Shown here in pieces: positions 17,298 to 35,390 of a DNA stretch of 36,367 nucleotides; positions within the stretch are counted from its first letter, which is position 1; each line of letters begins with the position of its first letter. The stretch spans positions 1-36,367 of the forward strand of contig JAIQEZ010000039.1 in NCBI GenBank assembly GCA_020073545.1. Direction: 5' to 3'. The notes under the pieces were generated by a model. The model saw only the letters and a program-made list of their open reading frames with translations. It made no database searches and was not told the origin of the DNA. This DNA is from Terriglobia bacterium. GTDB taxonomy: Bacteria > Acidobacteriota > Terriglobia > UBA7540. The position numbers and the translations under genes were made by a program.

Positions 17298-17343
17298 TTA
17301 ACTTTCTGGGGACACTTCCAGACGCAACTCTCCGCATTTCCTC

Positions 17344-17373
17344 TTGACAATTGAAGCCTGGGGGCGCAATTTA
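17344..17373 (+). promoter_or_regulatory. Candidate promoter of the DHH phosphoesterase gene
   Basis: A perfect TTGACA lies at 17344-17349, in an AT-richer stretch about 90 bp before the gene. At normal spacing the -10 candidates (CAATTT or AATTTA, 17367-17373) are poor, so only the -35 hexamer is convincing. Confidence 0.25.
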
Positions 17374-17439
17374 GGACGTTTCGCCTGCGCCGGGTGAGGC
17401 CGGATGTGGGAATACGGGGAAACCTCACCCTCATGAATC

Positions 17440-18402
17440 ATGGCTGTTCTGGTTTGTTTTCACGACCGGTGTTTCGACGGAGTATGCTCCGCGGCAGTCT
17501 TCACGCGCTTCTATCGGCAATGCGTCGACGCGAAGGCGGAATTCCGCTATCGCGGCCTGATGCACCGCGCCGGACAGTTGTTCGATGAGGGGCTGTTCGA
17601 CGCGGAAGAGAACGTGATCGTTGATTTCAAGTATTCCAGCTCCGACCACCTGACGTGGTGGTTCGATCATCACCAAAGCGCTTTCCTTACCGAGGCGGAC
17701 GCCGAGCACTTCCGGCGCGACCGGAGCGGGAAGAAATTCTACGGGCCGGACTTCCGCTCCTGCACCAAATTCATCGCGCACACCGCGAGCACGCGCTTCG
17801 GCTTCCGGGCGCCGGACCTGGAGGATTTGGTTCACTGGGCGGACCTGATCGACGGTGCACAATATCCGGATATTCGCACGGCCGTGGAAATGCACGAACC
17901 GGCCACACAGTTGACCCTGGTGATCGAGGGGGCGGGCGAAGCGGACTTCTGCGTGCGCCTGATTCCGGAACTTCTCTCGCGGCCGCTAAAGGAAATCGTC
18001 GCCCGTGCGCACATCCGGAAGGCCTTTGAAGACCTCTACAGTCAACATCTGAGGTCCATCGAGCTGATCCGTGGGCGCGCCGAACTGCACGACGGCGTGG
18101 TGTTCTTTGATGTCGCGGACCAGAACCTGGAGGGCTTCAACAAGTTCATTCCGTATTACCTTTTTCCTGGGGCGGTTTATAGCGTGGGTCTGAGCCGTTC
18201 GCAGGAGCGGATCAAGATCGCCGTAGGCAGCAACCCATGGAGCAGCGCCCCTAAGACGGCCAACCTGGCCAGCATCTGCGAGCGTTATGGAGGCGGCGGC
18301 CATGCCAAGGTGGCGGCGATCTCATTGCTTCCGACTGAGTTGGAGCGAGCGCGCAGCGTGGCGGCGCAGATTGTTCACGAGCTGCGCACCGGTTCCGGCT
18401 AG
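17440..18402 (+). CDS. DHH/DHHA1-family phosphoesterase
   Basis: This encodes 320 residues. The N-terminal DHH domain shows CFHDRCFDGVCSAAVF, the first metal motif, then ENVIVDFKYSS and the eponymous WWFDHHQSAF around residue 75. The C-terminal DHHA1 domain carries the substrate motif ERYGGGGHAKVAAISL near residue 285. The family includes nanoRNases, cyclic dinucleotide phosphodiesterases, RecJ and exopolyphosphatases, all using paired Mn/Mg ions; with no CBS or GGDEF parts, this is a compact cytoplasmic member. The Shine-Dalgarno is weak before ATG 17440, so the start is not certain. Placed just upstream of the phospho-signalling cluster, it might hydrolyse a cyclic nucleotide or its linear product, but that is only a contextual guess. 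Confidence 0.85.
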   Translation: MAVLVCFHDRCFDGVCSAAVFTRFYRQCVDAKAEFRYRGLMHRAGQLFDEGLFDAEENVIVDFKYSSSDHLTWWFDHHQSAFLTEADAEHFRRDRSGKKFYGPDFRSCTKFIAHTASTRFGFRAPDLEDLVHWADLIDGAQYPDIRTAVEMHEPATQLTLVIEGAGEADFCVRLIPELLSRPLKEIVARAHIRKAFEDLYSQHLRSIELIRGRAELHDGVVFFDVADQNLEGFNKFIPYYLFPGAVYSVGLSRSQERIKIAVGSNPWSSAPKTANLASICERYGGGGHAKVAAISLLPTELERARSVAAQIVHELRTGSG

Positions 18403-18854
18403 GCCGACAATCCGAGTTTGATTCTCCTGCCTGACGGGGTGCTGGAGCCTGCTCCCTCCCCCCTTTTCGCGCGGCGCGCCAGACAGATTCCGTGGGAACG
18501 GGGAAAGGAGGCCTTGCCCCGGGAGGGCCCCAGGCAAGGGGAAGCGAGACCCGGTCCGCAGGAATCCCCCTTGACTTTGCCCCCGACGGCGGGGCAGGGG
18601 AGCCTGCGGAAAGAACCGAGCGGCTTGATACCAACCAGAGCCTGTGGTAAGAAGGTATAGTCAATTCTATCCACGAGAGCCAGCCTCCTGGCGAACAGGC
18701 TGTTAGTGATTGACCAGTACGTGAGAGCGAGCCGGAGCGAAAGCGGAATCTCTTTTTGGGGTAAACTCGAGCTGATTCTCAAGTTGCACGCGCATCGACA
18801 GAAACCGATTTTACTTAGGTTGATAGTAACTGCAACCGGGGGAAGGTGATCGCC
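18403..18854. other. 450-bp intergenic region before the phospho-signalling cluster
   Basis: It is GC-rich with short stem-loops, for example TGCCCC (18578-18583) with GGGGCA (18591-18596). The last 120 bp before the phosphatase gene are AT-richer (CGATTTTACTTAGGTTGATA at about 18806-18825) and most likely hold its promoter, but no clear -35/-10 pair stands out. No supported coding frame was found. Confidence 0.35.
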
Positions 18855-19763
18855 GTGGCCGAGACGACGGGAAGTGATCCGAAGGCCATTCATGTAAAGT
18901 TGTTTGGGATGTCGGACATGGGTCGCGTCCGCAAGAACAACGAAGACAATTTTGTGATCTGCAATCTTACGACGGGAGAAGTGGGCCTTTCGCCCGCGCT
19001 GCTCGAGCACGATGTGGGGCCGTTCGGGTCATTGTTCATGGTGGCGGACGGGATGGGTGGCGAATCGAGCGGCGAGGTTGCCAGCCAACTTGCCGCGGTC
19101 ACCGTTCCCAAGCGCCTGTATGACAATTTGAAGTCGCTGGACACGGTCAGCGAGGCCAACTTCGTTATCCTTCTGCGCGAGGCCATTGAGTACGCCAATC
19201 AGATCATCTTTCAGAAGGCGCAGGCCAACCCTGCTTACCGTGGCATGGGGACCACGACGACGGCGGCGGCCCTCTTCGGTCAGTACCTCTTCGTGGGGCA
19301 AGTCGGAGATTCTCGCGCCTATCTGATCCGCAACAAACAGATCACCCAGTTGACCCGCGACCAGACGTTCCTGAACTACCTCAAAGAAATCGGCGCTGAG
19401 TTGCCGGCCGACCCTGAAAAGGACAGCCGCAAGAGCATCCTGACGCAGGCTGTGGGGAGCAGTGAGACGCTGGATGTGAAAGTCACCTACACGAAGGTGT
19501 ACCAGGGAGACCGAATCCTGCTGTGCAGCGATGGGCTGTACAACATGGTACCCCTGCCCGATCTCCTGGAGACGGCCAGTCGAGAGGATGGGCTGGCCGG
19601 CGGGTGCAAAGCACTTATCGAAAAGGCCAACGCCAACGGCGGGACCGACAACATCACGCTGGTCATGGTGGATTTTTCAGGGCCAGGGCTTCCCCCGCCG
19701 GATGCTGCCGCGTCCGTCGATTGCAAAGAATTCAACGAAGAAGATTTTAAACCGCGCACGTAG
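18855..19763 (+). CDS. PP2C-type Ser/Thr protein phosphatase
   Basis: This encodes 302 residues from GTG 18855, chosen because GGGGGAAGG ends 8 nt upstream; a GTG at 18846 would lie inside that site. All bacterial PP2C motifs are present: SDMGRVRKNNEDNF, LFMVADGMGGESSGEVAS, the MGTTTTAAALFG core, VGDSRAYLIRNKQITQLT, ILLCSDGLYNMV and GGTDNITLVMVDF. The acidic residues that bind the two catalytic metals are intact. It removes phosphate from Ser/Thr of proteins in the cytoplasm. It heads the plus-strand half of the signalling region, facing an operon with a Ser/Thr kinase, so it is the natural antagonist of that kinase. About 40 residues after the catalytic core are acidic and proline-containing with no known domain. 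Confidence 0.95.
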   Translation: MAETTGSDPKAIHVKLFGMSDMGRVRKNNEDNFVICNLTTGEVGLSPALLEHDVGPFGSLFMVADGMGGESSGEVASQLAAVTVPKRLYDNLKSLDTVSEANFVILLREAIEYANQIIFQKAQANPAYRGMGTTTTAAALFGQYLFVGQVGDSRAYLIRNKQITQLTRDQTFLNYLKEIGAELPADPEKDSRKSILTQAVGSSETLDVKVTYTKVYQGDRILLCSDGLYNMVPLPDLLETASREDGLAGGCKALIEKANANGGTDNITLVMVDFSGPGLPPPDAAASVDCKEFNEEDFKPRT

Positions 19764-19894
19764 AATCTCGAATTGGACTTGCGGAAGGGCCGTGCCCGCT
19801 CCTCGCTGGCAGGCGGGCGTACGGCTCAAAGCGGACGACGAGCTGACGCTTCCGCCCTGGTAGCGCGCTCACACGGACAGTGAGGTCCAAGGCC

Positions 19895-22800
19895 ATGAAA
19901 TGCTCGGGATGCGGCGAAGTGAATGAGGCAGGGTATCGGTTTTGCAGGGTTTGTGGCCACCCTCTGAGCGCGGCGGAGGAGGCTGCTGCCACGGTCGCCA
20001 TCCCCGTGGGCCCAAGCCCCAGCGAGGAGGCGGCTCCCACCGTGGCAGTCTCGACTCCGTCCGCAGCTCCCCCCGCTTTTCGGTTGCTCGCCACCTCGGG
20101 GCTTCTCTCCGGGCGCAATTTCAGCATTACGTCCAAAGGGCTGACTATCGGCCGCGATCATACCAATTGCCAGGTGGTGCTGGCAGATGACCAGGTCTCT
20201 CGACAGCATGCCTGGATTGGATTGAACGATGCCGGCCAAGTGGTGATCCGCGACAAGAATTCCGCCAACGGAACGTACGTCAATCAAGCGCGCATTCAGG
20301 AAGTGGTTTTGAAACCGACCGATGAAATTTCCATCGGCGCGGGCGCCAAGCATCTGTTTCGCATCGAGAGTTTCGTCTCTGCCCCCGCTGCAAAGGCGCC
20401 GTCGGCGGGGCGCGTGGCGGCAGCCGTGGCGGAAGAGGGTCAGTACAGCACTTCCGTGTTGAGTCAGGTGGATATCGCGGCGGCACAGGAAGAGGAAAAA
20501 ACCCGGGGCCGCACTGTGGCCATCAAGCTCACCGATCTGATGGCCCGGCCCCACGTCGAACTGATCGTTGACAAGTACGCCGTCAAGAGCGAGGACATTC
20601 CCGATACAGGGTTGGCTGTCGGCCGCGAGCCTTCCCGTTGCCAGGTGGTAATGGATCACCCCTCCGTGTCAGCGGTGCACGCGCAGTTTTCCGTCAAAGA
20701 CGGGAAAGTCCAGCTAACCGATCAATCAACCAACGGGACCTTCGTCAACGGAATTCGGGTCAAGACTGCTGAACTGCATGACGGCGATTACGTTACCTTC
20801 GGGCGGTACGCCGGCAAGTCTCTGATCTTTCGCTCCGGTCTGGAGCCGCAACTCAAGCTGGAAAGTATCGACCTGACCAAAGACCACCTGGTTATCGGTC
20901 GTGACCCCGACTGCGACGTGATCGTCGCCCATCCCATCGTCTCGAAAAAGCATGCCGAGATCGTCAAGCAGAATGGCAAGATTCTGATCGTCGATCTGGG
21001 CTCCACCAACGGGACTTTTGTCAATGGCATTCGGATCAAACGCCACGAACTCCAGGAACTGGACCGCGTGGTGATCGGCCCCTCGGAGCTCCATTTCCGG
21101 GGTGGAACCCTCTCGCATGTTCCCGACCGGCGGGTCGTGCGGCTGGATTCCGTGCACCTGAATTTCCAGGTGAGGGATCGCAATACGGGCAAGCCCAAAC
21201 TGCTGTTGGATGATCTTTCGCTGGTGGTCAAGCCGAAGGAACTGATTGGCCTGCTGGGGCCAAGCGGCGCGGGAAAATCCACTTTGATGAACGCGCTGAA
21301 CGGCTTTGTGAAACCTACCTCCGGCAAGGTGCTCTACAATGGCGTGGAGTTGTATCAGAACCTGGAGGCGCTGAAATCCACCATCGGATTCGTTCCGCAG
21401 GAAGACATCATGCACCGCCAGCTCACGGTCCGCCACTGCCTCTACTACGCGGCGAGACTGCGGTTGCCGGACGATATTTCCGACGATGAAATCAACCACC
21501 GCGTGGAAGAGATGCTGGAAATCCTGAAACTGGAACCGCAGCGGTGGGATAACCCGGTGGCGACGCTGAGTGGGGGCCAACGCAAACGCGTCAGCCTGGG
21601 AATCGAGCTTCTCCCCAAGCCTGGCGTGCTGTTTCTGGATGAGCCCACGGCCGGCCTGGATCCGCGCACCGAGACGCTGATGATGATGCTTTTCCGGCAA
21701 CTCGCCAACCAGGGCTCGACGATCATCATCACCACCCACTTGCTGGGGTCGTTCGGTGTGCTCGATAAAGTGGTGGTCCTCGTACAAGGGCGTCTTGCCT
21801 ATTACGGCCCGGGAACGAAACTTCTGGAGTATTTCAAGGCCGAATCTCCGCCCGACGTTTACGATGACTTGACGGATAACAACACCGAACCTTACGCGAA
21901 GGAGCTGAAGAAGAGATTTCAGGAGTCGTCCCAATACCGGGACCTGGTGATCGAGCCGCAGAAAAGCATTCCGGCGGAGCGTCCGGCTGCTGCGGTCCCA
22001 GGTCAGGCCCGGCCCCAGGGAAAGGGATTCAGCCTGCGCCAGTTCAACACCCTGCTGCAGCGCAGCTGGGAACTGAAATTCAGTGACCGGGCTCAAACCA
22101 TCCTGCTTTTCGTTCAGGCCCCGCTGGTGGCTTTACTCGTGGCCTTGATGGCGGGAGCACCCAACCAGGTGCAGACCATCTTCATGGCAATGTTCTCCGC
22201 GCTGTGGTTCGGCTGCTCGAATGCGGTTCGCGAGATCGTGGACGAGCAGACTATTTACAGACGGGAACGGCAGACCGGCCTGAAGATTCCTTCCTACATC
22301 CTTTCGAAACTCGTGGTCTTGTCTCTGGTGGCGTTGGCGCAGTGTGCTTCCGTCGTCCTCATCTGTCTGCTTGTCAATCACGCGCTCTCCTTGAGCCTGC
22401 CGGAAGCCGGCGCGGCCATCCTCATCATGTTCCTGGTCGCGGTGAACGGCACGCTGGTCGGTCTGCTGATCTCGAGTCTGGTCGCCACGCCCGAGAAAGC
22501 CTTGACGCTGTTTCCGCTCGTGCTGATTCCAGAACTCCTGCTTTGCGGTCTGTTCCTGCCGGTTCGTCCCATCCAAACGGTCATCCCAATCACCGTGGAA
22601 CAGCTCTTCGAAGGAAAGATGTTTGCGCAGCCGGAAGCGAAGGCCAAGGCGCAACAAACGGTGCACCCCTCCCCCGGTGAAGCGAATCCCACGGCGGCGC
22701 CGAGCGACCAGACCGCCCCCACCGGAGCGGAACAGGGCCGCTTTGCGCATCAAGTGGTGGGCGCGATGACGCCTTCGGAGCAGGTGACCAAGGCCTTCCA

Positions 22801-23161
22801 CAAATACACTCCTGCTCCGGTCGAGGGCATGGGGACGCCCATCCGCTGGCTTTCGACGCTGGCGATTTCACGCTGGGGTTTGGAAGCGCTGTCCGACCTC
22901 TGCCTGCACGGTGCGCATTCCACGCAGGACTACGCTTACAAGATCATCAACACCATCACGATTTCTCTGCATCCGGATGATGTGCAAAAGCTTGAGGAGG
23001 GTCTGGAGCAGTCGGCGGAGTCTGTCGCCGCCTCCGGTGCTTTCCCGCTTGCCTCGAGCTTCTGGAAGGACAAAGGGCCGTACCTGGGGATCATGACGGG
23101 TTACGCCTTTATGATGATTGTGATCATCCTGATCCTGATGAAACGCAAGGATGTGAAGTAG
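19895..23161 (+). CDS. Zinc ribbon + triple FHA + ABC ATPase/permease fusion
   Basis: This encodes 1088 residues from ATG 19895. The order is a zinc ribbon (KCSGCGEVN ... FCRVCGHPL, residues 1-30), FHA1 (TIGRDHTNC, VSRQHAWIG, NSANGTYVN, about 80-150), FHA2 (AVGREPSRC, VSAVHAQF, STNGTFVNG, about 235-300), FHA3 (VIGRDPDCD, VSKKHAEI, STNGTFVNG, about 330-390), then an ABCG-type ATPase with Walker A GPSGAGKST (about 455), signature LSGGQRKRVS, Walker B VLFLDEPTAGLD and ITTHLL. About six helices form an ABC-2 permease (about 730-1085). All three FHA domains keep the GR, SxxH and NG residues. The nearest known design is the mycobacterial FHA-FHA-ABC exporter Rv1747, controlled by a Ser/Thr kinase. 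The exported substrate is unknown. Confidence 0.95.
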   Translation: MKCSGCGEVNEAGYRFCRVCGHPLSAAEEAAATVAIPVGPSPSEEAAPTVAVSTPSAAPPAFRLLATSGLLSGRNFSITSKGLTIGRDHTNCQVVLADDQVSRQHAWIGLNDAGQVVIRDKNSANGTYVNQARIQEVVLKPTDEISIGAGAKHLFRIESFVSAPAAKAPSAGRVAAAVAEEGQYSTSVLSQVDIAAAQEEEKTRGRTVAIKLTDLMARPHVELIVDKYAVKSEDIPDTGLAVGREPSRCQVVMDHPSVSAVHAQFSVKDGKVQLTDQSTNGTFVNGIRVKTAELHDGDYVTFGRYAGKSLIFRSGLEPQLKLESIDLTKDHLVIGRDPDCDVIVAHPIVSKKHAEIVKQNGKILIVDLGSTNGTFVNGIRIKRHELQELDRVVIGPSELHFRGGTLSHVPDRRVVRLDSVHLNFQVRDRNTGKPKLLLDDLSLVVKPKELIGLLGPSGAGKSTLMNALNGFVKPTSGKVLYNGVELYQNLEALKSTIGFVPQEDIMHRQLTVRHCLYYAARLRLPDDISDDEINHRVEEMLEILKLEPQRWDNPVATLSGGQRKRVSLGIELLPKPGVLFLDEPTAGLDPRTETLMMMLFRQLANQGSTIIITTHLLGSFGVLDKVVVLVQGRLAYYGPGTKLLEYFKAESPPDVYDDLTDNNTEPYAKELKKRFQESSQYRDLVIEPQKSIPAERPAAAVPGQARPQGKGFSLRQFNTLLQRSWELKFSDRAQTILLFVQAPLVALLVALMAGAPNQVQTIFMAMFSALWFGCSNAVREIVDEQTIYRRERQTGLKIPSYILSKLVVLSLVALAQCASVVLICLLVNHALSLSLPEAGAAILIMFLVAVNGTLVGLLISSLVATPEKALTLFPLVLIPELLLCGLFLPVRPIQTVIPITVEQLFEGKMFAQPEAKAKAQQTVHPSPGEANPTAAPSDQTAPTGAEQGRFAHQVVGAMTPSEQVTKAFHKYTPAPVEGMGTPIRWLSTLAISRWGLEALSDLCLHGAHSTQDYAYKIINTITISLHPDDVQKLEEGLEQSAESVAASGAFPLASSFWKDKGPYLGIMTGYAFMMIVIILILMKRKDVK

Positions 23162-23187
23162 CACAGCCCCTGCACAAAGGAGTCAGC

Positions 23188-23550
23188 ATGGACAGCGGTT
23201 ATTCCACAGTTCGCAACCTGCTTTACATTGTTTTGGTGTTAACGGTGTTGTCAATCTTCGCGAACTTTTACGTCGCGTCACAACTGGCCCGGAACAGCGA
23301 CGAGCTGGCGCGCATGGGCCTGCTTCTCCAGAAACAGATGATGGGGACCGCCCTGCAACAGTCGCAGGAATTGCAGAAGAAAATGGAGCAGCTCAATCAG
23401 GACGCCGCGGGCATCGACGCGAAGCTGCAGAAGGCCCAGGACAGTTTTGTGGCGCGGATGAATGTCGAGCTCCCCAGGATCATGGACAACTACGTCAAGT
23501 CGCGCGCGCCGACAATTGAAAAGCAGGTCATGAAGCAAGTGCCGAGATAG
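23188..23550 (+). CDS. Small membrane-anchored coiled-coil protein
   Basis: This encodes 120 residues, with AAAGGAG before ATG 23188 and only 26 bp behind the FHA-ABC gene, so it is almost surely in the same operon. One N-terminal helix (LLYIVLVLTVLSIFANFYVA) anchors it. From about residue 45 to 100 a heptad-like, Gln/Lys/Leu-rich helix (LQQSQELQKKMEQLNQDAAG) predicts a coiled coil, and the tail is basic (KQVMKQVPR). No family is recognisable. The position suggests an accessory or assembly subunit of the FHA-ABC transporter, perhaps projecting into the periplasm, although the topology is not established. Confidence 0.75.
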   Translation: MDSGYSTVRNLLYIVLVLTVLSIFANFYVASQLARNSDELARMGLLLQKQMMGTALQQSQELQKKMEQLNQDAAGIDAKLQKAQDSFVARMNVELPRIMDNYVKSRAPTIEKQVMKQVPR

Positions 23551-23553
23551 CGC

Positions 23554-23570
23554 CGCCTGGGCAGCAGGCG
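23554..23570 (+). terminator. Stem-loop at the end of the FHA-ABC operon
   Basis: CGCCTG (23554-23559) and CAGGCG (23565-23570) form a 6-bp stem with a 5-nt loop, starting 4 bp after the stop codon. There is no T-run. A second GC-rich stem, CCGGG/CCCGG, lies at 23664-23677 in the same convergent gap. Confidence 0.4.
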
Positions 23571-23722
23571 AGTCGGCCAGGGCAACTCAGGGCGGGTCAG
23601 AGGCTCGACAACCCATCGAGGATCGGCAGAGTTTCGGGCACGCCCTCGGACTCGGGGGGGGAGCCGGGCCTGCCCGGACGAAGGCGGGCACAGCGGGGGA
23701 GACACCTGGTAGCGAACTTGCC

Positions 23723-24979
23723 TTACTCGAGGGTCTTCACTTCCACGCGGAAAAGCTGTTCACCCATGAAGAACTCGTCGCCGTCCGCGAGTTCCACTTC
23801 ATCGCGCACGCGGCGATAGACGCCGTTCCGGCTGCGCATATCCTGTAGAACGAAGCGTCCAGGTTGGGCCACGATGCGGGCGTGTGTTCCCGACATGTAA
23901 TGGTCGTCCGCGAAGATCAGCTCGCCCGTAGTCCGGCCCAGGGTAGTTTCCGGCTTCTCGAGCTTGAACTCCGCGACGATTTCTCCATTCAGCTTGATGT
24001 GCTCGAGCTTGGCCGTGACCGGTCCTTTTTGAAGTTTGGGCGGGCCGCTCCACATCACCGTGCCCTGCGCGGCATTCTTGCCTTGCGCCTCGTCGAGGCT
24101 TTGGGTGGTAAAGCGGAAGAGTTCGCGCCCCAGCAGGAAGATGTCGCCGGGGGAGAGCTCGCTGTCCTGCCTTTGCCGAACGAAGGACCCGTTCTGGCTG
24201 CCCTGGTCCCTCAAAAGAAGCTTGCCCTCGCGGACGACGAGGGAAGCATGCCGCGCTGAAAGCAGTTGATCTTGGGGATAGCTCAGTTCGCAGTTCTCGC
24301 GACCGATGAACGTCTCTTTCGTGATGACGACAGTTCTTCCTACCGATCCGTCCGGCTTCTTCTCCGTGATCTTGGCTTCGATCTGCACCACGTGCAGGCC
24401 TCTAAAAACCACGGTCCCTTCCGGTGAGGGTGCAGGGGGAGCTGCTGGCGGTCGGGGTGAAGGCGGCTTGGCAACCGGCGGAACGGGCGGCGCGGGCGGC
24501 GGAACCGCGGGCCTCGGAGGAACAGGAGGCTGCGGCGGAGGCGGAGCGGGCCTCGCCACAGGCGGCGTCGGCGGAGCCACCGGACGCGGTGGAGGAGGCA
24601 CCGCAGGCCGGGCCACGGGTGGCCGGGGGGGAGCAACAGGTTTCGGCGGAAGAGGCGGTCCTGCGGGCCGAGGGGGCGCCGCGGGCTGCTGGATCGGCGC
24701 GGGCGGAGGCGCCGCCTGGGGGGGTGCAGCCGGCAAAGGTGTGCCGCAGAACCCGCAGAACTTGCTTCCTGCGGGAAACGATTTGTGGCACTTCGGGCAC
24801 ATTACCTGCGGGACAACCGGCGCGGCCGGGGGGCGTGGAGCCGGCGCCGCGGACGTCGCCGCGCCGTGTAACGGTTTTCCGCAGCGCGCGCACGTCGGCA
24901 AGGACGCCGGATTCATATTCCCACAGGAGACGCACCGCATGTAACGGACGGTTCCTTGTTCGTTTGCGTCAGCGGTCAT
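23723..24979 (-). CDS. Double zinc-ribbon, proline-rich, double-FHA protein
   Basis: This encodes 418 residues from ATG 24979; ATG 24940, just before the first ribbon, is an alternative. Two zinc ribbons (RCVSCGNMN...CARCGKPL and MCPKCHKSF...CGFCGTPL) occupy residues 14-82. A Pro/Ala-rich linker follows to about residue 185, then two FHA domains: FHA1 (FIGRENCEL, LSARHASLV, SQNGSFV) and FHA2 (TLGRTTGEL, SGTHARIV, SRNGVYRRV). FHA domains bind phosphothreonine peptides. With no enzyme domain and no membrane helix, it looks like a cytoplasmic adaptor that links phosphorylated partners. It is the last gene of the minus-strand kinase operon, 34 bp behind the PHP-type gene. The linker is low complexity, which explains strongly biased base runs at 24420-24720. 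Confidence 0.9.
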   Translation of the reverse strand: MTADANEQGTVRYMRCVSCGNMNPASLPTCARCGKPLHGAATSAAPAPRPPAAPVVPQVMCPKCHKSFPAGSKFCGFCGTPLPAAPPQAAPPPAPIQQPAAPPRPAGPPLPPKPVAPPRPPVARPAVPPPPRPVAPPTPPVARPAPPPPQPPVPPRPAVPPPAPPVPPVAKPPSPRPPAAPPAPSPEGTVVFRGLHVVQIEAKITEKKPDGSVGRTVVITKETFIGRENCELSYPQDQLLSARHASLVVREGKLLLRDQGSQNGSFVRQRQDSELSPGDIFLLGRELFRFTTQSLDEAQGKNAAQGTVMWSGPPKLQKGPVTAKLEHIKLNGEIVAEFKLEKPETTLGRTTGELIFADDHYMSGTHARIVAQPGRFVLQDMRSRNGVYRRVRDEVELADGDEFFMGEQLFRVEVKTLE

Positions 24980-25013
24980 GTTGGATGCTCTCTTCGATTC
25001 TGATCGGCGTCAT

Positions 25014-26993
25014 CTAGTCGCCGGTGGCTCTTATCCAGATGGGGTTAGTATAGCAGCGAAACTCTTCCTTGGCGCTGTTTCGTGTGCTGGCCTCCAGCCG
25101 GACGTATTTCCATTCTTCCGAACCTTCTTTCAAGACTTGGCGAAGCTCGAAGGGCACAAGACCCTCGCTGGAGAGGCCTTTGGCGGAAGGCACGGGCACC
25201 TCCACAGGTTTCAGCTCACCGGTGCTGGTTCCCACAATCAGCCGGATAGATTGCAGGGGCCCAAATTCTTCACTGCTCACCCAGAGGAGTTGCAGAGCGG
25301 GGAGGGACTTCAGAGGGCAGGAGATATCCTGGCCGATGCCCACGTCTTCGGGGTCGCCGAGAGATCCGTTGGAGTTGCGATCGAAGCCGGCGATCAGAAG
25401 GGGACCGTTGCTTGCCACGCTGCGGCCATCACGCAGGGCACGCAGGACGTTCTCACCACGCGCCCCCATGCCCTCCGGCGCGTACGCTACGGTGGAGATC
25501 CGGCCGAGGGCGTTGTCCTCCGCATATCCGTTTAGGCCCCGCGACGGCTTGCCGATAAAGTCCACGACGTCCATGGTGGCTTCGTAGTTCAGGTCGCCAT
25601 GCGCATCTGAACCCGCGGCGAAGAAGGTCTTGAAGAGCGGAGCGTTCACCCCATCACTCCGAGGCCGGAGGCCGCGCTCGAGCAGCGGTTGCCACCCCGA
25701 CTTGATTCCTTGTTCCAGGCGTGCGTACTGGTCAGCGTCCTTATCGTGTTGGAAGCAGGCGCTCGCTTCCGCGTGGGGATGGATGCAGAAGGGGTCACGC
25801 ATGTCATCGGCAGTGGCCATCGTGGCACGGTTCCAAGGTTCGAGGCCGACCACACCTGCCTGGAGCTGCTTGCCATCCGCCGCGAGGAAATCCACGTCCA
25901 AGTCCCACTTTCCCCCGCGTATGACGGGGCTGATGGGGTCAAAGGGGTGGGCGGCGTACGCGAATCCGCCCGCCGCGACAATGCGCGCCAGAGCGTCCTT
26001 GAGGGGCATGGCTGCGGAGGCAATAGAGCCGTCGCCCGTCAAGACAACCGCGCTATCGACGTCGGTGGGATCTGGGAACCCCTTGTCGGGATCATCGGGT
26101 GACGGCGCCGCCACCATGTGGATGGTGACCAAGAAGGTGTCCTTGCCGGACGAGAGGGTCATCTCCTCGCCGCGAATCAGCATCACCCGGTCGTCCCGAT
26201 ACTTCTTGACGTCGTTCAACTCTTCCTTATAGCGTTCCGGAGAGAGGTCGGTGGAATGGTCGGCCAAGAGCAGCCAGTCCATCCCGGCCTGCAGAGCCGC
26301 CTGCTTGGTACCGTTGAGTGGGTACCCGCGCTCCGCAGGATTGTCGGTATAGGCGGTGTGGTAATGCATGTCACCTCGATACCAATTGGCAATCCGGGGA
26401 AGCGGCCCGGCATTCAGGCGAACGCGCAGATAAAAGTCCTGGTTCGGCCAATCCACGACCCGAAACGAGATCCAGAAGTCCGCTGAGGCGAACGGCCCGC
26501 CCAAGTAATGGCTGGCGAGAAAAGACTGAACCGCCTGGCGGGGCACTTCGAGAGTCTGCCTCAGCCGGTCCTGAATCACCAAGGGCTGGCCGTCCGTGCG
26601 CGCGTCAAAGGAAAACTCCTTGCTCGTTCCCAGCAGTAATGCCTCCTGGGTGAACTTATGCTGGGCGCCCGTGGGTTTCACATAAATGTTCACACCCTGT
26701 AGTTTTAGCGGGTCCCGCTGGACATAGCGGGAGACAGCAGAACCCGTGGTGTGGGCGGCCTTCTCGATACCGTTGATGACCTCCAGATAGATGGGGAGAT
26801 ACGCATCGTCAGCATTTCGCAGCGAGCGCGGCGCGTCAGCCCGGAAGAACACGCCGGTCTTTGAGAACTTCTCCTTGAGTTGGGACGTCAGGCTCTCCTG
26901 GGTTTGGGAAAAGGCTGGAGTGGAAGAGGTAAAACATGCCGCCAGGACGGCGGCGCAGACGAGAGAGTAAGAGTATCGGATGCATGGTTTCAT
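25014..26993 (-). CDS. Exported PHP-domain (CehA/McbA-type) metallohydrolase
   Basis: This encodes 659 residues from ATG 26993, which overlaps the upstream TGA as ATGA; the longer reading to 27029 would run into the neighbour. A signal sequence (SYSLVCAAVLAACFTSSTPA) is followed by an accessory beta-rich region (about 30-215). The PHP-type metal motifs come next: RGDMHYHTAYTD (HxH), WLLLADHSTD, YAAHPFDPI and AAGSDAHGDLN. CehA/McbA relatives hydrolyse carbamate or phosphoester-type bonds; several uncharacterised secreted ones occur in Acidobacteriota and Planctomycetes. The substrate here is unknown. Translational coupling to the degenerate protease gene suggests the two exported proteins act together. 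Confidence 0.85.
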   Translation of the reverse strand: MKPCIRYSYSLVCAAVLAACFTSSTPAFSQTQESLTSQLKEKFSKTGVFFRADAPRSLRNADDAYLPIYLEVINGIEKAAHTTGSAVSRYVQRDPLKLQGVNIYVKPTGAQHKFTQEALLLGTSKEFSFDARTDGQPLVIQDRLRQTLEVPRQAVQSFLASHYLGGPFASADFWISFRVVDWPNQDFYLRVRLNAGPLPRIANWYRGDMHYHTAYTDNPAERGYPLNGTKQAALQAGMDWLLLADHSTDLSPERYKEELNDVKKYRDDRVMLIRGEEMTLSSGKDTFLVTIHMVAAPSPDDPDKGFPDPTDVDSAVVLTGDGSIASAAMPLKDALARIVAAGGFAYAAHPFDPISPVIRGGKWDLDVDFLAADGKQLQAGVVGLEPWNRATMATADDMRDPFCIHPHAEASACFQHDKDADQYARLEQGIKSGWQPLLERGLRPRSDGVNAPLFKTFFAAGSDAHGDLNYEATMDVVDFIGKPSRGLNGYAEDNALGRISTVAYAPEGMGARGENVLRALRDGRSVASNGPLLIAGFDRNSNGSLGDPEDVGIGQDISCPLKSLPALQLLWVSSEEFGPLQSIRLIVGTSTGELKPVEVPVPSAKGLSSEGLVPFELRQVLKEGSEEWKYVRLEASTRNSAKEEFRCYTNPIWIRATGD

Positions 26994-28438
26994 GGGATCA
27001 GCTTTCGAGCAACTTGAATGGGGATGCACTGGTTGGCCGAGGCCGCCAATGCCACCACCTTACCATCGGCATTGAGCAAAGGTGCACCGGATTCGCCAGG
27101 GTCCACCTGATGTTCCATCACCACGGCGGCTCCTTGAAGTTCTACCTTGACGCTGAGAAGACGCGGTTCCGTTTGGGGCTGACTCACCCCGAAAGGATAA
27201 CTGCACAACACCAGCTTGGGATGGGCAGCGAGGTTGGCCGCCGAGTCCTCGAACGACAAGGGATGAAAGCCCGTTCCACTGAGCTGCAGCAAGGCCAGGT
27301 CCGATTCGCCTTCAGCGTGGAGATGCAGAGTGGCCCGCTCTGCGGAGTCCGGATCCTGGTAATCCTGTTGCACCATCTGGTCGGGCGGCGTCATCAGGAC
27401 CTTCAACGTCTGCTTTTCGGTGCTGAGGGCGGACTGAAAATCAGGTTGACCGTCCGCGGCCTTTACCTGGGCGCCGGCCGGCCAGGCGTAGGTCTTCACA
27501 CTGTCTTTGTCCATCTCCAGGTGTTGGTGCTCGATCAGGAAGGCGACCTGCGGGTCAAACTTCCAGGGTGCAACCACGCGTTTGGTGGTCAGCAGCTTTC
27601 CATCCGCACTCACCAAGAAACCGGTGCCGGATTGCGAGAAGGTTTCCGAGGCTTTGGACTTCGGGTCACGCACCACGTATTCCGTGTATAAGAGGTAGAG
27701 AGCGGGTCGTACCGCGACTCCCAGGGTCTGATCCTGATGCAACTTCGCCAGATGTTCCTTCGCCATGTTGAGGGCCGCGACGGAAGCAGGGTTCGTGAGG
27801 GTTAGCAGAATGTTGTCCGCCGTCATGCGGAGGAGGGGGTTGCCCTGGAAGAGGTTCAACGGCACCTGTTCGTTCAGGGTCACCGGGATCACGAGCTGTT
27901 TCGTCCGCAACGCGACTTTCTCCAGAGCGTTCAGCTTGACCTCGATGAAGCTTTGTCCCGTGACCTGGAGCTTGTCATTGTCCACCATTTCGCGGACCGG
28001 CTGCAGGGAGTCCAGGTCCGCAAAAACAATGGAACACTTGAGGGGGGCAGGGACGTCGACGGGGGTCTTATCCGAGAGTCTGAACTCCTGATCGAAGGTC
28101 TCAATGTGAACGGGAATCCCGCTCACCCGTACGTCCTGAAAGTACATTCGCTGGACCGTGGCGGCGCGGTCCACGGGCCGAATGCTGATCGCCAGATCGA
28201 GCAGCAGGCGGTCGAAGTTGATATCCCGAAAGGAGAAACTCTTGTAAACGGCCGGGTTGGGGGCGGGCTGGCCACCCTTGGTGGGAAGCTGGTAAATCTT
28301 GGCGCCGCGGAGCTCTTCCGGCAACTGGCCGGGCGGCTCGGTCTGTTGCGCAACCGCCGGCACGGAAAAAGCGACGACCGTCCATGCGATGGCGGCAAAA
28401 AGCCGAGAACGCGAAAGAATCGATGGTGGCGATAACAT
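26990..28438 (-). CDS. Exported trypsin-fold protein with a missing catalytic His (pseudoprotease)
   Basis: This encodes 482 residues with a signal peptide (FAAIAWTVVAFSVPAVAQ). The N-terminal 250 residues are unrecognised, with beta-rich segments. The C-terminal part reads like an HtrA/S1C trypsin fold: GTGFLVSADGKLLTTKRVV aligns with the usual G-S-G-F...L-T-x-x-H-V-V motif, so the catalytic His is replaced by Arg. ESDLALLQL supplies the Asp region, and DPGESGAPLLNADGKVVAL keeps the Ser of the GxSGxP motif. Without the His it should not be a conventional serine protease and may bind peptides or partners. No PDZ domain is seen. The stop overlaps the start of the PHP-type gene (ATGA), and the cyclase gene lies 40 bp upstream. 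Confidence 0.78.
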   Translation of the reverse strand: MLSPPSILSRSRLFAAIAWTVVAFSVPAVAQQTEPPGQLPEELRGAKIYQLPTKGGQPAPNPAVYKSFSFRDINFDRLLLDLAISIRPVDRAATVQRMYFQDVRVSGIPVHIETFDQEFRLSDKTPVDVPAPLKCSIVFADLDSLQPVREMVDNDKLQVTGQSFIEVKLNALEKVALRTKQLVIPVTLNEQVPLNLFQGNPLLRMTADNILLTLTNPASVAALNMAKEHLAKLHQDQTLGVAVRPALYLLYTEYVVRDPKSKASETFSQSGTGFLVSADGKLLTTKRVVAPWKFDPQVAFLIEHQHLEMDKDSVKTYAWPAGAQVKAADGQPDFQSALSTEKQTLKVLMTPPDQMVQQDYQDPDSAERATLHLHAEGESDLALLQLSGTGFHPLSFEDSAANLAAHPKLVLCSYPFGVSQPQTEPRLLSVKVELQGAAVVMEHQVDPGESGAPLLNADGKVVALAASANQCIPIQVARKLIP

Positions 28439-28478
28439 GCTGTGTGGACCCCCGAGGCCAAACCCGCGCAGGAGAAAT

Positions 28479-30131
28479 TCACCTGGGAAACCGCGCCGTG
28501 CCTTCAGTACTTTCTTGGGGGACGGAATCCTGCCAGCGGATCTCGTAAAGCTCCACGGGCGTTTCCTTGCCTTTCACGCGGATGGGTTCCAGGCGTTGCG
28601 CCGGTATGTGGCCGTTCAATTGCGAGTAGGTTGATTCGGAGATGAGGATTTGTTCTCCGGCCGCATTCGCGCACAGACGCGAGGCCAGGTTGACCGCATC
28701 TCCGATGACCGTGTAATCCATGCGCTTGGCGGAGCCGATGTTTCCGGCCGTCACCGGGCCGGTATTGATGCCCACCCCCATCAGGAGGCGTTGCTGGCCG
28801 CGGTTTTCCCACTCGCGATTGAGATGCGCCAGAGCCCGCTGCATCTCTACGGCGGTCTTGGCGGCACGCAGCGCGTCGTCGGGTTTGGGAAGCGGGGCTC
28901 CGTAAACGGCCATGATGCCGTCGCCCAGGTATTTGTCCAGCGTGCCTCCGCTTTCGAAGATGAGGTCGGTCATCTCCGAGAAGAATTCGTTCAGCAGTTC
29001 CACCACGGCTTGGGGTTCCATGTGTTCCGACATGCGGGTGAAACCGCGAATGTCGGAAAACAAGATGGTGGCGATCTGGTTCTCACCGCCCAGGTGGACT
29101 TGGTCGGGGCTGGCAAGAATCCTTTCGACATTGGCGGAGCTGAGGAAGCGCTCCAGCGCCTGGCGCTCCACGACGCGGCGGGCCAGCTCCTCATGCGAGC
29201 GGGCGTTATCAAAGCTGATGGCCGCCTCCGCCGCAATCACGGAAAAGATACTGAGTTCTTCCATGGAGAACGCATAGGGCTTGCTCAGGCAGTCGACATA
29301 AAAGAGCCCGAAAACGTGGTCTTTGTAAATCAGCGGGGAGCACATCGCCGAGCGGATGCCCGAGATGCGCAGGCTTTGGCTGGAGGAAAAGCGCTCGTCG
29401 CTGCCGACATCATGAATCAGCAGCGGCACGCGGTCGCTCATGACCCGATCGATCACCGTGGTGGAGAGGGCCACGCCGCGCGCCTGGGCTTTCATACTCT
29501 CGTCTTTGTAAAGGAGCACGGCGGGCTTGAATCCCTTCTTGTCGTCGCGGAGCATGACGAAGCCCCGTTCCACGTTCTCCATCTGAAACACCAGTTCCAT
29601 GACCCGGTGCATGACTTCTTCGGGTGTCAGAACGGAGGAGAGCGTCTTGCCGACGGCCAGGAGCAGTTTCAGGAGGTTGTTCTCGTGTTCCAGGGCCTTC
29701 AGCCGGTCCGGGATGGCCACCGGGCCCGTGGCGGCCATGGGCGAGGCAAGCCGCAGAGCTGTCCTGATGTCATCCGCGCCGACCAAACCGTCCACATCGG
29801 TCACGGAGCCGCCCCCGGCTTCAATGTGCAAGTCGTGCGAGCGCCCCGTCTCGTATTTGAGCTCGTACATGCCGATCCCGACCCGGTCCTGGTCGGAGAG
29901 GCCGTGCTCCTGAATCTGCGTGCCGTTCACGAAGGTTCCGTTCAAACTCCCGAGATCATTCAGCAGCGTGATATCACCGGGAAGCACGGTGACGCGCGCG
30001 TGGTGACGAGAGACACTGGGATGGCGCAGAATCAGGTCGTTGGACTCCGCCCGTCCGACACTGATCGTGGGACTGGAAATCTCGAAGATCTGCGTCCGGT
30101 CTGATGGATCGGTAATGACAAATCGAGCCAT
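28479..30131 (-). CDS. FHA-GAF-class III nucleotide cyclase
   Basis: This encodes 550 residues with no membrane segment. FHA domain: residues about 1-95 (ISVGRAESND, VSRHHARV, SLNGTFVNG). GAF domain: about 165-320 (VERGFVMLRDDKKG ... SAMCSPLIYKDHVFGLFYVD). Class III cyclase: about 350-535, with ILFSDIRGFTRMSE and YLGDGIMAVYG supplying the two metal Asp, and NLASRL supplying the transition-state Asn and Arg. The purine-selecting positions appear to be Lys (LDKYLGDG) and Thr (DYTVIGDAV), the usual pair of bacterial adenylate cyclases, so cAMP is the predicted product. The FHA domain would tether or switch it through a phosphothreonine made by the kinase two genes upstream. The C-terminal tail of about 20 residues is disordered. 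Confidence 0.93.
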   Translation of the reverse strand: MARFVITDPSDRTQIFEISSPTISVGRAESNDLILRHPSVSRHHARVTVLPGDITLLNDLGSLNGTFVNGTQIQEHGLSDQDRVGIGMYELKYETGRSHDLHIEAGGGSVTDVDGLVGADDIRTALRLASPMAATGPVAIPDRLKALEHENNLLKLLLAVGKTLSSVLTPEEVMHRVMELVFQMENVERGFVMLRDDKKGFKPAVLLYKDESMKAQARGVALSTTVIDRVMSDRVPLLIHDVGSDERFSSSQSLRISGIRSAMCSPLIYKDHVFGLFYVDCLSKPYAFSMEELSIFSVIAAEAAISFDNARSHEELARRVVERQALERFLSSANVERILASPDQVHLGGENQIATILFSDIRGFTRMSEHMEPQAVVELLNEFFSEMTDLIFESGGTLDKYLGDGIMAVYGAPLPKPDDALRAAKTAVEMQRALAHLNREWENRGQQRLLMGVGINTGPVTAGNIGSAKRMDYTVIGDAVNLASRLCANAAGEQILISESTYSQLNGHIPAQRLEPIRVKGKETPVELYEIRWQDSVPQESTEGTARFPR

Positions 30132-30145
30132 GAAGAGAGCCTAGG

Positions 30146-30811
30146 TTACTCCACGCGCACGACGTCAGAGAACTCCGGTTTCGCGCCGGCATTCATGGTG
30201 ACGACCCGGGCGCGCGCGTTGCCGGCGTCGACCACTTGGGTGACCTCGATGACCCCCACCCGGGTGTTGGGGTCCGTGGCTTTGTAAACGGCCAATCGCG
30301 ATCCCTGCTGAACGCCCTGAGCCGAGCCCATGTCGATCATTACATTCCCGCCGTCTACAGCAGTGATGTAACCCTGGGGCGCCTGGCGAGCCGGCACGGC
30401 CCCCGGACGCGTGACGTTGGCGGTCTCGGCCGGGGCTGCCGGTTGCTGCGCGGGCTGGCCGGTCAGCTTCTTGACAGCATTCTCAGTTTCGGCGCGCAAT
30501 TCCGTGAGCGCCGTCTTCAGCTTTGCGAAGTTCTCCTCGTTGCCGATGCGCAGGGAGGAGAGCATCTGGTCCAAGTCCTGAAGCGACCGCTGCTGGCGGA
30601 TGGTTACGGCCTGGAGTTGCGCCTGATTCTGTTTCAATTCCGCCAGTTGAGCGTTCAGCGCGGCCACCTGATTGCCCAGGGCCTGCATCTGGTCGAGTAC
30701 AGACTTGAACTGGTCGTCGAGATACTTTTGTTCATCCTCTTTCCACTTCGGCCACGCGCTGGGCGCCAAGAAGAGCAGCAAAAAGATGACAAACGTGATA
30801 CGACGGGTCAT
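30146..30811 (-). CDS. Exported coiled-coil protein with C-terminal beta domain
   Basis: This encodes 221 residues with GGAGG 7 nt before ATG 30811. A signal peptide (ITFVIFLLLFLAPSAWPKW) is followed by a long coiled coil (about 25-115, e.g. LGNQVAALNAQLAELKQNQA). A Pro/Ala hinge comes next, then a small beta domain, GYITAVDGGNVMIDMGSAQG ... VGVIEVTQVVDAGNARARVV, of the type found at the ends of several envelope proteins (FlgT-C/SH3-like). The trimeric or dimeric rod plus beta head suggests a periplasmic structural or sensing element. It lies between the kinase (48 bp) and the cyclase (14 bp) genes, so it belongs to that operon. No enzymatic motif is visible. Confidence 0.75.
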   Translation of the reverse strand: MTRRITFVIFLLLFLAPSAWPKWKEDEQKYLDDQFKSVLDQMQALGNQVAALNAQLAELKQNQAQLQAVTIRQQRSLQDLDQMLSSLRIGNEENFAKLKTALTELRAETENAVKKLTGQPAQQPAAPAETANVTRPGAVPARQAPQGYITAVDGGNVMIDMGSAQGVQQGSRLAVYKATDPNTRVGVIEVTQVVDAGNARARVVTMNAGAKPEFSDVVRVE

Positions 30812-30859
30812 GATCGAACCTCCACTGCGTTCCTGGGTGCTTCGCGAAGGGCGCCCGCG

Positions 30860-32788
30860 CTATTGGCTGGTGAGGTTGATATTGATGTTGGACGTCCCAC
30901 TCGCTGAAACGTCAACGTGCTGTTGAACCGGTCGGTACCCTGAAAGCGATATGGCCAGCGTATGCGGCCCAACGGCCAACCGAAAAGATGTGGGAGTCTG
31001 TCCGCCCACCGGCGACCCATCCGCCAGCACCGTGGCGCCCGGTGGGATGGTCCGGACTTCCACGATCCCCGTCCGGGTGACCTCACCAAGGTTTAACTTC
31101 TTGGTGAGGATAGCCCCACTCTTCAGCGTGAACGTCTTTTCGTAAGGTTCCGCCCCCGGCCGCTTCACGGTGTAAGTGTGGTCTCCGGCGCTCAAGGTGG
31201 CGCGCACGGGGCTGGGCCCATAGGATTTTCCATCAATCAGCACTTCCACTCCGGTGGGACTGGTCTCAATGTTGATTTCACCGCGGGGAGAGGAGAGATT
31301 GCCGACGACACTGTTGGTCTGGCCTCCTTCAATCGTCACGCTTTGCTGGAAATCCTCGTAGCCGTCCCTGGAAATGACCACGTTGTAGGTTCCCGCGGGA
31401 AGCCTGGCAATCGTATAAGGTGTCACCCAGCTTGGATCGCTCCGTCCGTCGAGGGAGATCTTCGCACCGGCGACGTTGGCGCTGACTAGAAGTTGTCCCA
31501 CCTTGGCCGCCGCGGGGGCGTGGGTTCGCTGCGGCTCCTGGGTCCGGGCGACCTCGGCTATGGGCGGAATCTCCGCGGACTTCGCCTCCGTCGGTTGGGT
31601 AGGAGTTGTGGCTTGTTGTGCAGTCACGGCAGGCGGCGTAGCCTCCGTAACGACCTGCGACGTGACGGGCTGAACCACGCGCTGGCCCTGTCCGCGCAAG
31701 AGGATGAAGTACCCCACGCCTCCCAATAACGCCACCACCAGGAGGCTGCCGAGGACCCACGCGATTTGGGGAATTCCCTGCGGGCGGGGCGGCGTCGGCC
31801 GAATCACGTGAATAACGGGGGGCCTCGTGACCGGCGTCTCCTCCACCGCGACCGGTGGGGGTTGGGGCGCCTGCTCCTGCATCGGAGGGGCAGGTTCGGC
31901 CGGGCCCACCGCCGTAGGGGCGGTCCTCAGAACCACCGTGCCCTGGGGTGAAGGCGCGCCGCCCAGGGTCCTGTAATTCCTCAGATCTTCTGCCAACTCG
32001 CGGCACGTCTGGTAACGTTCGTCAGAATTCTTGGCGAGCGCTTTGCTAATGACGTAGTTCAAGCCGGCATGAATTGTCCCGTCCAGTTCGCGTGGCGGGA
32101 TGGGGTTCTCATTGATAATTTTATAGATGACCGTAGTAATGTTTTGGCCGCCGAAGGGCTTTTCCCCCGTCACCAATTCGTAAAGGATCACGCCCAGCGA
32201 GAAGATGTCAGACCGGCCGTCGACTTGGCGCCCTTTGACCTGCTCGGGCGACATGTAATTCGGTGTGCCCAAAATCTGGCCGGCCTGCGTCATGCCCAGC
32301 GACATGATCTTGGCAATGCCAAAGTCGGTCAGTTTCACCAGCCCGTTCTGCAGGAGCATGATGTTGGCGGGCTTGATATCGCGATGCACAATCTTGTTCC
32401 GGTGAGCGTGGTCGAGGGCGCTGCAGACCTGGTCATAGATGGGCAGAATGGTCTCAAGGGGCAGGACGTTCTGTTCCTGGACGACCTGCTCGAGTGACTT
32501 GCCCTCCAGGAACTCCATGGCGAGAAAAAGGATGCCGCCGTCCTCGCCAAAATCGTACACGGTGATGATATTGGGATGGGTGAGAATTCCTGCGGCCTGC
32601 GCCTCCCGCTGGAAGCGTGCCTTGTACTCCTGGAACTCCTGCGGAGAAAGGCCCTCGGTGAGCATGGTCTTGATCGCCACCGTACGGCCAATGATCGGGT
32701 CGAACCCCTGGTACACGATCCCCATCGACCCACGGCCCAATTCACCGACGATCTGATAACGCCCTGCTTTGGTCAGTGCTTCGGCCAT
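30860..32788 (-). CDS. Membrane Ser/Thr protein kinase with three PEGA domains
   Basis: This encodes 642 residues with GAGG 5 nt before ATG 32788. The N-terminal Hanks-type kinase (about 10-270) has GELGRGSMGIVY, VAIKTM, IVHRDIKPANIML, LTDFGIAKI, the activation loop to GTPNYMSPEQ, and DIFSLGVILYELVTG; all catalytic residues are intact and it is an RD kinase. A Pro-rich juxtamembrane stretch leads to one helix (WVLGSLLVVALLGGVGYFIL, about 345-365). The periplasmic part has three PEGA repeats (GQLLVSANVAGAKISLDGR; GEINIETSPTGVEVLIDGK; GIVEVRTIPPGATVLADGS). PEGA domains are common surface and sensor modules in Acidobacteriota and Myxococcota. It is the first gene of a six-gene operon and the likely source of the phosphothreonines read by the FHA domains. 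Confidence 0.96.
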   Translation of the reverse strand: MAEALTKAGRYQIVGELGRGSMGIVYQGFDPIIGRTVAIKTMLTEGLSPQEFQEYKARFQREAQAAGILTHPNIITVYDFGEDGGILFLAMEFLEGKSLEQVVQEQNVLPLETILPIYDQVCSALDHAHRNKIVHRDIKPANIMLLQNGLVKLTDFGIAKIMSLGMTQAGQILGTPNYMSPEQVKGRQVDGRSDIFSLGVILYELVTGEKPFGGQNITTVIYKIINENPIPPRELDGTIHAGLNYVISKALAKNSDERYQTCRELAEDLRNYRTLGGAPSPQGTVVLRTAPTAVGPAEPAPPMQEQAPQPPPVAVEETPVTRPPVIHVIRPTPPRPQGIPQIAWVLGSLLVVALLGGVGYFILLRGQGQRVVQPVTSQVVTEATPPAVTAQQATTPTQPTEAKSAEIPPIAEVARTQEPQRTHAPAAAKVGQLLVSANVAGAKISLDGRSDPSWVTPYTIARLPAGTYNVVISRDGYEDFQQSVTIEGGQTNSVVGNLSSPRGEINIETSPTGVEVLIDGKSYGPSPVRATLSAGDHTYTVKRPGAEPYEKTFTLKSGAILTKKLNLGEVTRTGIVEVRTIPPGATVLADGSPVGGQTPTSFRLAVGPHTLAISLSGYRPVQQHVDVSASGTSNININLTSQ

Positions 32789-34070: not shown

Positions 34071-35390
34071 GTGACAAACCGCGCCATGACCGGATCTTTC
34101 GAAATCTGTTCTCTTCTCGGGTTCCGTCCCGGGGTGCAGCACAAGTTCTTGCCAGCTCTTGCTTTCATGGTTTTCTCGTTCGCGCATTTGACGGCCACAC
34201 CAGGCGCGCCGGGTCCGGCCTTTCCGATCGAGGACGCCAGCAACACCTTGGCGGCCGGAACGCCGCTTTACCTGCGGCTGGAGACCCCGGTTAGCACAAA
34301 AACTTCGCACCTCAATCAGGCTGTGAACGCCCGCGTGGTGCGCGAAGTCACGAACGGTCAAAGCGTGCTGGTTCCCATCGGTGCAGAAGTGAAAGGGAAA
34401 ATCGAGAAGCTGATTCCGACTTCTGAATCTACGGACCGCGCGCGCTTGTTGTTTCACTTTGACCAGCTGCTGATCCCGGGCCACGCCGCGCTCAAGCTGG
34501 CCGCGCACCTGACGGAGGTCGAGAACGCGCGGGAGACCGTCCTGGAGGATGGGACGATTCGAGGAGTCCTGGCCAGCGAGTTGCCGGTCTCGCATCTGGG
34601 TGATGCCTTGGACAAGCTGGGGGCAGCGGGCGCCGACCTGAAAAAGATGTCGGACAAAAATCTGGGAGTGGCCGATACATCGATTGATTATGCTGCGGGC
34701 GCGGACCTGATCCTGGCGCTGGATAAACCCCTGGCGGTGGATTCGACCTCACCGGCGGCCGCGGCGTCCGAGATCTCTCCGGACTTGGCGGATGCTATCC
34801 AGAAACTGCTCGCAGACGCGCCGCAGCGCGCCGAGGGAAAGAACAAATCGCCGGGCGACCCGCTCAATCTAGTCTTGGTCGGAAATGCCGACCAGATCCG
34901 CAAGGCCTTCCAGCAAGCGGGCTGGAGCGAAGCTGCGAAGAAGAACAGGAAGTCGGTGCTGGGCACGCTGCGCGCGGTGGCCAGCGAAGGGGGTTACGGG
35001 GAGGCTCCCGTCTCCGACCTCTACCTTTATGACCGCGCCGAAGATTTCGCCTTCGAAAAGATACTCAACACCTTCATGAAACGTCACCACCTGCGCCTGT
35101 GGCGTTCCCCGGTCACCACGCCCGATGGCCGTGAAATTTGGCTGGGCGCGGCGACGCACGACATCGGCCTGGACGTGCACCCCGGCGTGGTTTCACACGC
35201 TATCGATTCCGATCTCGATGCGGAGCGCGCTAAAGTCGGCGCCGACCTGATGGCCGGTGGGTCGGTGGCCACCGAACAGCTCGTGACCCGCCCCAATCCG
35301 CTCTCGGAGGGAAAGACCGCCACCGGGGGCACTTGGAAGACCAGCGGCCAGTTGCTGGTGATTGAGTTGAAGCCCTCAGGCACGAGCTGA
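34071..35390 (+). CDS. Exported protein with C-terminal LssY_C domain
   Basis: This encodes 439 residues from GTG 34071 (GAGG 6 nt upstream); ATG 34086 is an alternative. An export segment (FLPALAFMVFSFAHLTA) appears around residues 26-42. A beta-rich N-terminal domain follows (about 60-160: LAAGTPLYLRLETPVSTKTS, VLVPIGAEVKGKIEKLIP), resembling the barrel seen in TrbI-like or other acidobacterial surface proteins. From about residue 263 the LssY C-terminal domain is clear: DPLNLVLVGNADQIRKAFQQ, AGWSEA, VSDLYLYDRAEDFAFEK, REIWLGAATHDIGLDV and AIDSDLDAERAKVGADL. LssY_C also occurs fused to PAP2/DedA membrane proteins; its biochemical role is unknown. It appears monocistronic. Confidence 0.75.
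   Translation: MTNRAMTGSFEICSLLGFRPGVQHKFLPALAFMVFSFAHLTATPGAPGPAFPIEDASNTLAAGTPLYLRLETPVSTKTSHLNQAVNARVVREVTNGQSVLVPIGAEVKGKIEKLIPTSESTDRARLLFHFDQLLIPGHAALKLAAHLTEVENARETVLEDGTIRGVLASELPVSHLGDALDKLGAAGADLKKMSDKNLGVADTSIDYAAGADLILALDKPLAVDSTSPAAAASEISPDLADAIQKLLADAPQRAEGKNKSPGDPLNLVLVGNADQIRKAFQQAGWSEAAKKNRKSVLGTLRAVASEGGYGEAPVSDLYLYDRAEDFAFEKILNTFMKRHHLRLWRSPVTTPDGREIWLGAATHDIGLDVHPGVVSHAIDSDLDAERAKVGADLMAGGSVATEQLVTRPNPLSEGKTATGGTWKTSGQLLVIELKPSGTS

Follow-up and report, generated by a model that had tools for sequence, protein, structure and literature searches.

Do nine adjacent genes in a Terriglobia bacterium, which supply a protein kinase, a phosphatase and several FHA proteins, form one signalling module, and how might such a module work? 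The main known cases of bacterial FHA networks are those of mycobacteria and of the T6SS, and for most Hanks-type kinases we know of no identified targets. The window, the whole stretch of 36,367 nucleotides that was analysed, is an entire contig (C28) of a 5.28-Mb genome (95.5% complete), six of whose nine FHA domains fall in the nine-gene locus. The named records among its relatives belong to MAGs of Acidobacteriota/Terriglobia that come from groundwater, soil and bog.

Genes of the locus and their active sites

A first operon with the order DUF4870 - DHH-like - PP2C - FHA3-ABC - CC120 converges on a second one that reads Zn-FHA2 - PHP - TRYP - FHA-cyclase - CC221 - kinase (Table 1). A sequence-only reading had described nine adjacent genes with six FHA domains in total: all nine ORFs are present, the FHA count is correct, and apart from small corrections of start codons the description agrees with the Pfam and NCBIfam domain calls. 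These calls recover the PP2C, the exporter (three FHA domains, ABC NBD and ABC2 membrane domain), Zn-FHA2 (two FHA domains and zinc ribbons) and, further along the second operon, the trypsin-like protein, the FHA-GAF-class III cyclase fusion and the Pkinase with three PEGA domains.

Active-site residues of the kinase, PP2C, ABC, cyclase and PHP proteins are kept across orthologs. These include VAIK, HRD and DFG in the kinase, NED, DGMGG and DN in the phosphatase, and the metal Asp, the Lys/Asp adenine pair and N..R in the FHA-cyclase; the exporter possesses both Walker A and the ABC signature. Earlier regular-expression searches that missed Walker A and the cyclase motifs were artefacts of the patterns. 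The most probable start of the exporter is ATG 19895 rather than GTG 19880, because the ortholog alignments begin at that Met. The start of PHP is most likely ATG 26993, which yields a 4-base ATGA overlap with the TRYP stop, a junction repeated in the orthologs L139, L141, L143 and L145.

Table 1. Positions of the nine genes, their FHA domains and conserved linker threonines in the window.
Feature	Position	Strand	Remark
PP2C Ser/Thr phosphatase	18846..19763	+	metal ligands intact; acidic tail KEFxEEDF conserved
Exporter, 1093 aa: Zn ribbon, 3 FHA, ABC ATPase, ABC2 membrane domain	19880..23161	+	domain profiles
Exporter FHA domains	20144-20338, 20618-20803, 20891-21079	+	
Exporter linker Thr191, YSTSVLS (orthologs HTSLVS)	20450..20452	+	12/15 orthologs
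Exporter linker Thr212, GRTVAIK (orthologs GGTVAIK)	20513..20515	+	14/15 orthologs
CC120, 120-aa TM and coiled-coil protein	23188..23550	+	single N-terminal TM helix
Zn-FHA2: double Zn ribbon, Pro-rich linkers, 2 FHA	23723..24979	-	domain profiles
Zn-FHA2 FHA domains	24128-24310, 23765-23947	-	
Zn-FHA2 Thr307, (Q/E)GTxxW	24059..24061	-	17/17 orthologs
Zn-FHA2 Thr189, EGTVVF	24413..24415	-	16/17 orthologs
Zn-FHA2 Thr10, EQGT(V/I)RY	24950..24952	-	17/17 orthologs
PHP, exported CehA/McbA-type metallohydrolase	25014..27029	-	DxHxH, DH, GEE, SDAH ligands invariant in orthologs
TRYP, exported: N-terminal beta domain, trypsin-like pseudo-protease	26990..28438	-	catalytic His replaced; ATGA overlap of its stop with the PHP start
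FHA-cyclase: FHA, GAF, class III cyclase	28479..30131	-	adenine-type Lys/Asp pair
CC221, 221-aa exported coiled coil, FlgT_C-like C-terminus	30146..30811	-	FlgT_C score below cut-off
Hanks-type kinase: Pro-rich juxtamembrane region, one TM helix, 3 PEGA outside	30860..32788	-	domain profiles
Kinase juxtamembrane Thr284, QGTVVL	31937..31939	-	11/14 orthologs

TRYP had been called a pseudoprotease, and rightly so: every ortholog that covers the position of the catalytic His has Arg or Gln there, the catalytic Ser is additionally lost in some of them, and TRYP lacks the His-Asp-Ser triad of HtrA and trypsin. An AlphaFold model of low confidence (pLDDT 58.5) supports an HtrA-like fold for TRYP, and only weakly a LEA14-like (1xo8) N-terminal domain. 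PHP scores 76.7 bits against NF038032, slightly below the cut-off of 80; a Pfam search gave no match, a profile search of the PDB found no relative, and its AlphaFold model is poor (pLDDT 45.3). Export had been claimed for CC221, TRYP and PHP: the N-termini of all three look signal-peptide-like by eye, and a crude hydrophobicity cut upholds the claim for TRYP only. The solved structures closest to the FHA domains of Zn-FHA2 are GarA/OdhI; the NCBIfam profiles OdhI and FhaB score 45.5 and 67 bits, below their curated cut-offs of 200 and 125 bits.

Several neighbouring genes deserve mention. Immediately upstream of PP2C (16767-18402) lie genes for a DUF4870 protein with a zinc ribbon and for a DHH-like protein without Pfam hit; the pair keeps this place in most relatives, and both are possible extra module members. 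An LssY_C-domain protein (34071-35390) adjoins the kinase and is retained in several relatives. The same contig carries glycan genes (alpha-L-fucosidase, GH43, GlgB and a MocA-type oxidoreductase) and, by eye, an RND-type efflux set (1758-15958). Elsewhere the genome holds about a dozen further kinases, and its ten cNMP-binding domains could receive cAMP. A promoter/terminator scan gave signal no higher than chance.

Conserved threonine tags in variable linkers

An observation new in this analysis is that conserved Thr islands of the form (E/Q/G)-G-T-V-x-hydrophobic are found inside otherwise variable disordered linkers: three in Zn-FHA2, two in the exporter and a weaker one in the kinase. Compared with other linker columns, the conservation excess of the motif has p values of 0.001 (Zn-FHA2), 0.025 (exporter) and 0.13 (kinase); the kinase tag is the weakest, its excess being not significant and the tag being absent in G001. 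In shuffle tests within the genus Zn-FHA2 reached p<0.002, and the exporter linker, tested at a single site in each genome, about 0.05-0.1, for a tag that is short and was defined on the very proteins in which it was scored. Among the 14 of 15 genomic kinase matches that were read, only the locus kinase has the juxtamembrane tag. Nearly all tags possess a hydrophobic residue at +3, a feature enriched in PknA-dependent sites (PMC7164672).

Similar tags recur in more distant proteins, as a repeated KATVVY(S/T)G in an FHA-trypsin of G119 and as ETVYSG and PTVYTG in a kinase of G071. Linkers of acidobacterial FHA proteins of other families contain 6 tags versus 0.8 expected, compared with 2 versus 1.6 in neighbouring ORFs, a small sample. 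In the genome of the window itself (G000), another protein with two FHA domains (L003, contig C116) carries EGTMILD between them and may be a further client of the kinase. The C-terminal EGTARF of the FHA-cyclase is motif-like, but it is unconserved in orthologs and was rejected as a tag. From their sequence and by analogy we read the tags as candidate pThr docking sites for FHA domains, as in GarA and PknF-Rv1747; they could instead be processing, docking or kinase-substrate sites unread by FHA.

Recurrence among relatives and rival readings

Presence was surveyed in 61 related genomes and, at phylum scale, in 396; PP2C, Zn-FHA2, CC120 and CC221 were scored on retrieved contigs rather than genome-wide. 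All nine genes stand in order in G003 and G004; G006 shows the same order from the exporter end onward; elsewhere the order is partial on broken contigs, the whole covering eight genera of one Terriglobia family and one genome (G037) of a sister family. Such recurrence of the order speaks for more than chance. Rare co-occurrence of the two operons in relatives would have refuted the module, and the survey did not find it: an exporter ortholog occurs in 18 of the 61 genomes, and TRYP (16 genomes) and PHP (16 genomes) are confined to these 18, the other 43 possessing neither, save weak trypsin-domain matches in G045 and G053. The probability of this association by chance is 3e-6 at the genus level and 8e-13 at the genome level (relatedness uncorrected). 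Across the phylum, 3 of 396 genomes have TRYP, and FHA-exporters at 40-45% identity occur in 37 of 396; most of these exporters stand apart from the other genes of the set, and some lie near or adjacent to kinases.

More distant relatives present the genes in other groupings. G119, of another family, has one run of Zn-FHA2 - PP2C - DUF1571 - FHA3-ABC - FHA-TM-coiled coil - FHA-trypsin, and G258, of the same class but another family, has PP2C - FHA3-ABC - FHA-TM-coiled coil - TRYP. Judged by gene order, the second operon of the window includes a gene that in other families sits with the first; since TRYP shares one operon with PP2C and the exporter in G258 and G119, the pair appears to have arisen by the splitting of a single ancestral operon. 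Together with the co-occurrence, this sustains the claim of one functional module. The adjective "complete" is not supported. The locus of G027 lacks the FHA-cyclase, and G013, G019 and G029 have the cyclase but no exporter; CC221 adjoins the kinase in part of the relatives, and in several genomes the locus has no CC221. These two are the loosest members of the module. The FHA-TM-coiled-coil protein of G258 (L237:7053-8147, minus strand) occupies the operon position equivalent to that of CC120, and its C-terminus is matched by CC120 with E 8e-12, the sole match among 997 ORFs; CC120 resembles an FHA-less relative of it. G071 has Zn-FHA2 - PP2C - FHA-trypsin - FHA-kinase - kinase, and its FHA-trypsin (L172, 7990-9432, minus strand), with intact His and Ser beside two kinases and a PP2C, is a possible active counterpart of the pseudo-protease.

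Three other readings have to be weighed. The locus might encode a kinase-controlled, Rv1747-like ABC exporter whose substrate is a lipid or glycan of the envelope, with PHP and the pseudo-protease as periplasmic partners for processing or quality control, the cyclase as a passenger, and no multi-protein cluster. We regard this as possible rather than probable: PP2C, exporter, TM-coiled coil and TRYP are the part held in common with G258 and G119, the cyclase is separable as described above, and Rv1747 affects PIM levels (PMC5549992), but a single exporter would not require as many as six FHA domains together with several tags, and in G049 the FHA-cyclase adjoins a kinase. It is improbable that the two operons are independent and neighbours by chance or shared ancestry. 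Their halves do lie on separate long contigs in G001 (contamination 8%) and G010, yet both genomes retain both halves; the restriction of PHP and TRYP to exporter-bearing genomes and the shared operon in G258 and G119 likewise speak against independence. A defence or conflict system made of kinase, cyclase and protease-like protein is hardly credible and was rejected, as the matching PADLOC profiles (PD-T4-6 kinases, Pycsar cyclases) fall on shared kinase and cyclase domains, neither a Pycsar effector nor a MoxR/vWA partner was found among the scanned proteins or within the nine genes, and the cross-genus order and exported parts better suit house-keeping signalling.

A proposed circuit and its known counterparts

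We lean towards a membrane-anchored phospho-threonine signalling module with kinase-written tags, FHA readers, a PP2C eraser, clustering and switched outputs. The kinase would sense, or be gated by, something periplasmic via its three PEGA domains, perhaps assisted by the exported coiled coil, the pseudo-protease and the PHP enzyme, and would phosphorylate Thr in the G-T-V-x-hydrophobic tags of its own linker, of Zn-FHA2 and of the exporter. The six FHA domains would bind phosphorylated tags within and between molecules, so that exporter, Zn-FHA2 scaffold, kinase and FHA-cyclase may gather in a cluster. This cluster would switch export, along with cAMP synthesis where the cyclase is present, and PP2C would dissolve it. 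We infer this kinase-tag-FHA-PP2C circuit, from signal to outputs, by analogy with PknF/PstP/Rv1747 and GarA/OdhI. On the other hand, the writer of the tags could be any of the other genomic kinases, and many acidobacteria have the 40-45% identical FHA-exporters apart from the other genes of the set. We conclude that the module is real and conserved, and that the circuit is a strong hypothesis. A bolder version, which we offer tentatively and consider doubtful, posits a multivalent pThr tag-and-reader code, in which one writer and one eraser act on the tags and six FHA domains read them. Through it the exporter, the scaffold, the kinase and the adenylate cyclase would come together as a condensate-like signalosome at the membrane, which the conserved pseudo-protease would couple to the periplasm; such a system would be acidobacterial, older than the genus and undescribed. 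No description of this gene combination was found among open-licence papers.

Among known systems, the PpkA/PppA/Fha set of the T6SS likewise combines a kinase, a PP2C and FHA proteins. The earlier statement that T6SS genes are lacking agrees with a search of the genome for the sheath gene VipB/TssC (PF05943), which is absent, and the reading as a T6SS threonine phosphorylation pathway was rejected. The juxtamembrane region of PknB docks FhaA (PMC12077195), and the locus kinase similarly has a putative FHA dock, a candidate pThr within its disordered juxtamembrane linker; the ectodomain is PASTA in PknB and PEGA here. Zn-FHA2 recalls GarA, with its ETTS switch (PMC12321487), and OdhI in its conserved N-terminal Thr with hydrophobic +3 as well as in FHA domains to which theirs are the closest solved structures, but differs from them in having two FHA domains, zinc ribbons and three tags, and it shows no sign of a 2-oxoglutarate dehydrogenase link.

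The closest parallel is PknF-Rv1747 with PstP, in which phosphorylation by PknF promotes condensation of Rv1747 and PstP reverses it (PMC9312465). Both systems place FHA domains ahead of an ABC ATPase that is fused to a membrane domain of ABC2 type, and both have a disordered FHA linker, a PP2C and a Hanks-type kinase gene nearby, which here stands at the far end of the same locus, in the convergent operon. They differ in phylum and in extent: PknF-Rv1747 is a two-gene operon in M. tuberculosis and Rv1747 has two FHA domains, whereas the acidobacterial exporter has three and a zinc ribbon, its PP2C gene lies beside it, the kinase bears a PEGA ectodomain, and an FHA scaffold, an FHA-cyclase, a PHP enzyme and a pseudo-protease are added in a nine-gene locus. 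We rate the module as a larger Rv1747/PknF-like variant, likened by its presumed working rather than by orthology. Because writer, eraser, readers and candidate sites share one conserved locus, a full pThr circuit becomes testable with defined peptides, and the idea of Rv1747 clustering becomes testable in a distant phylum.
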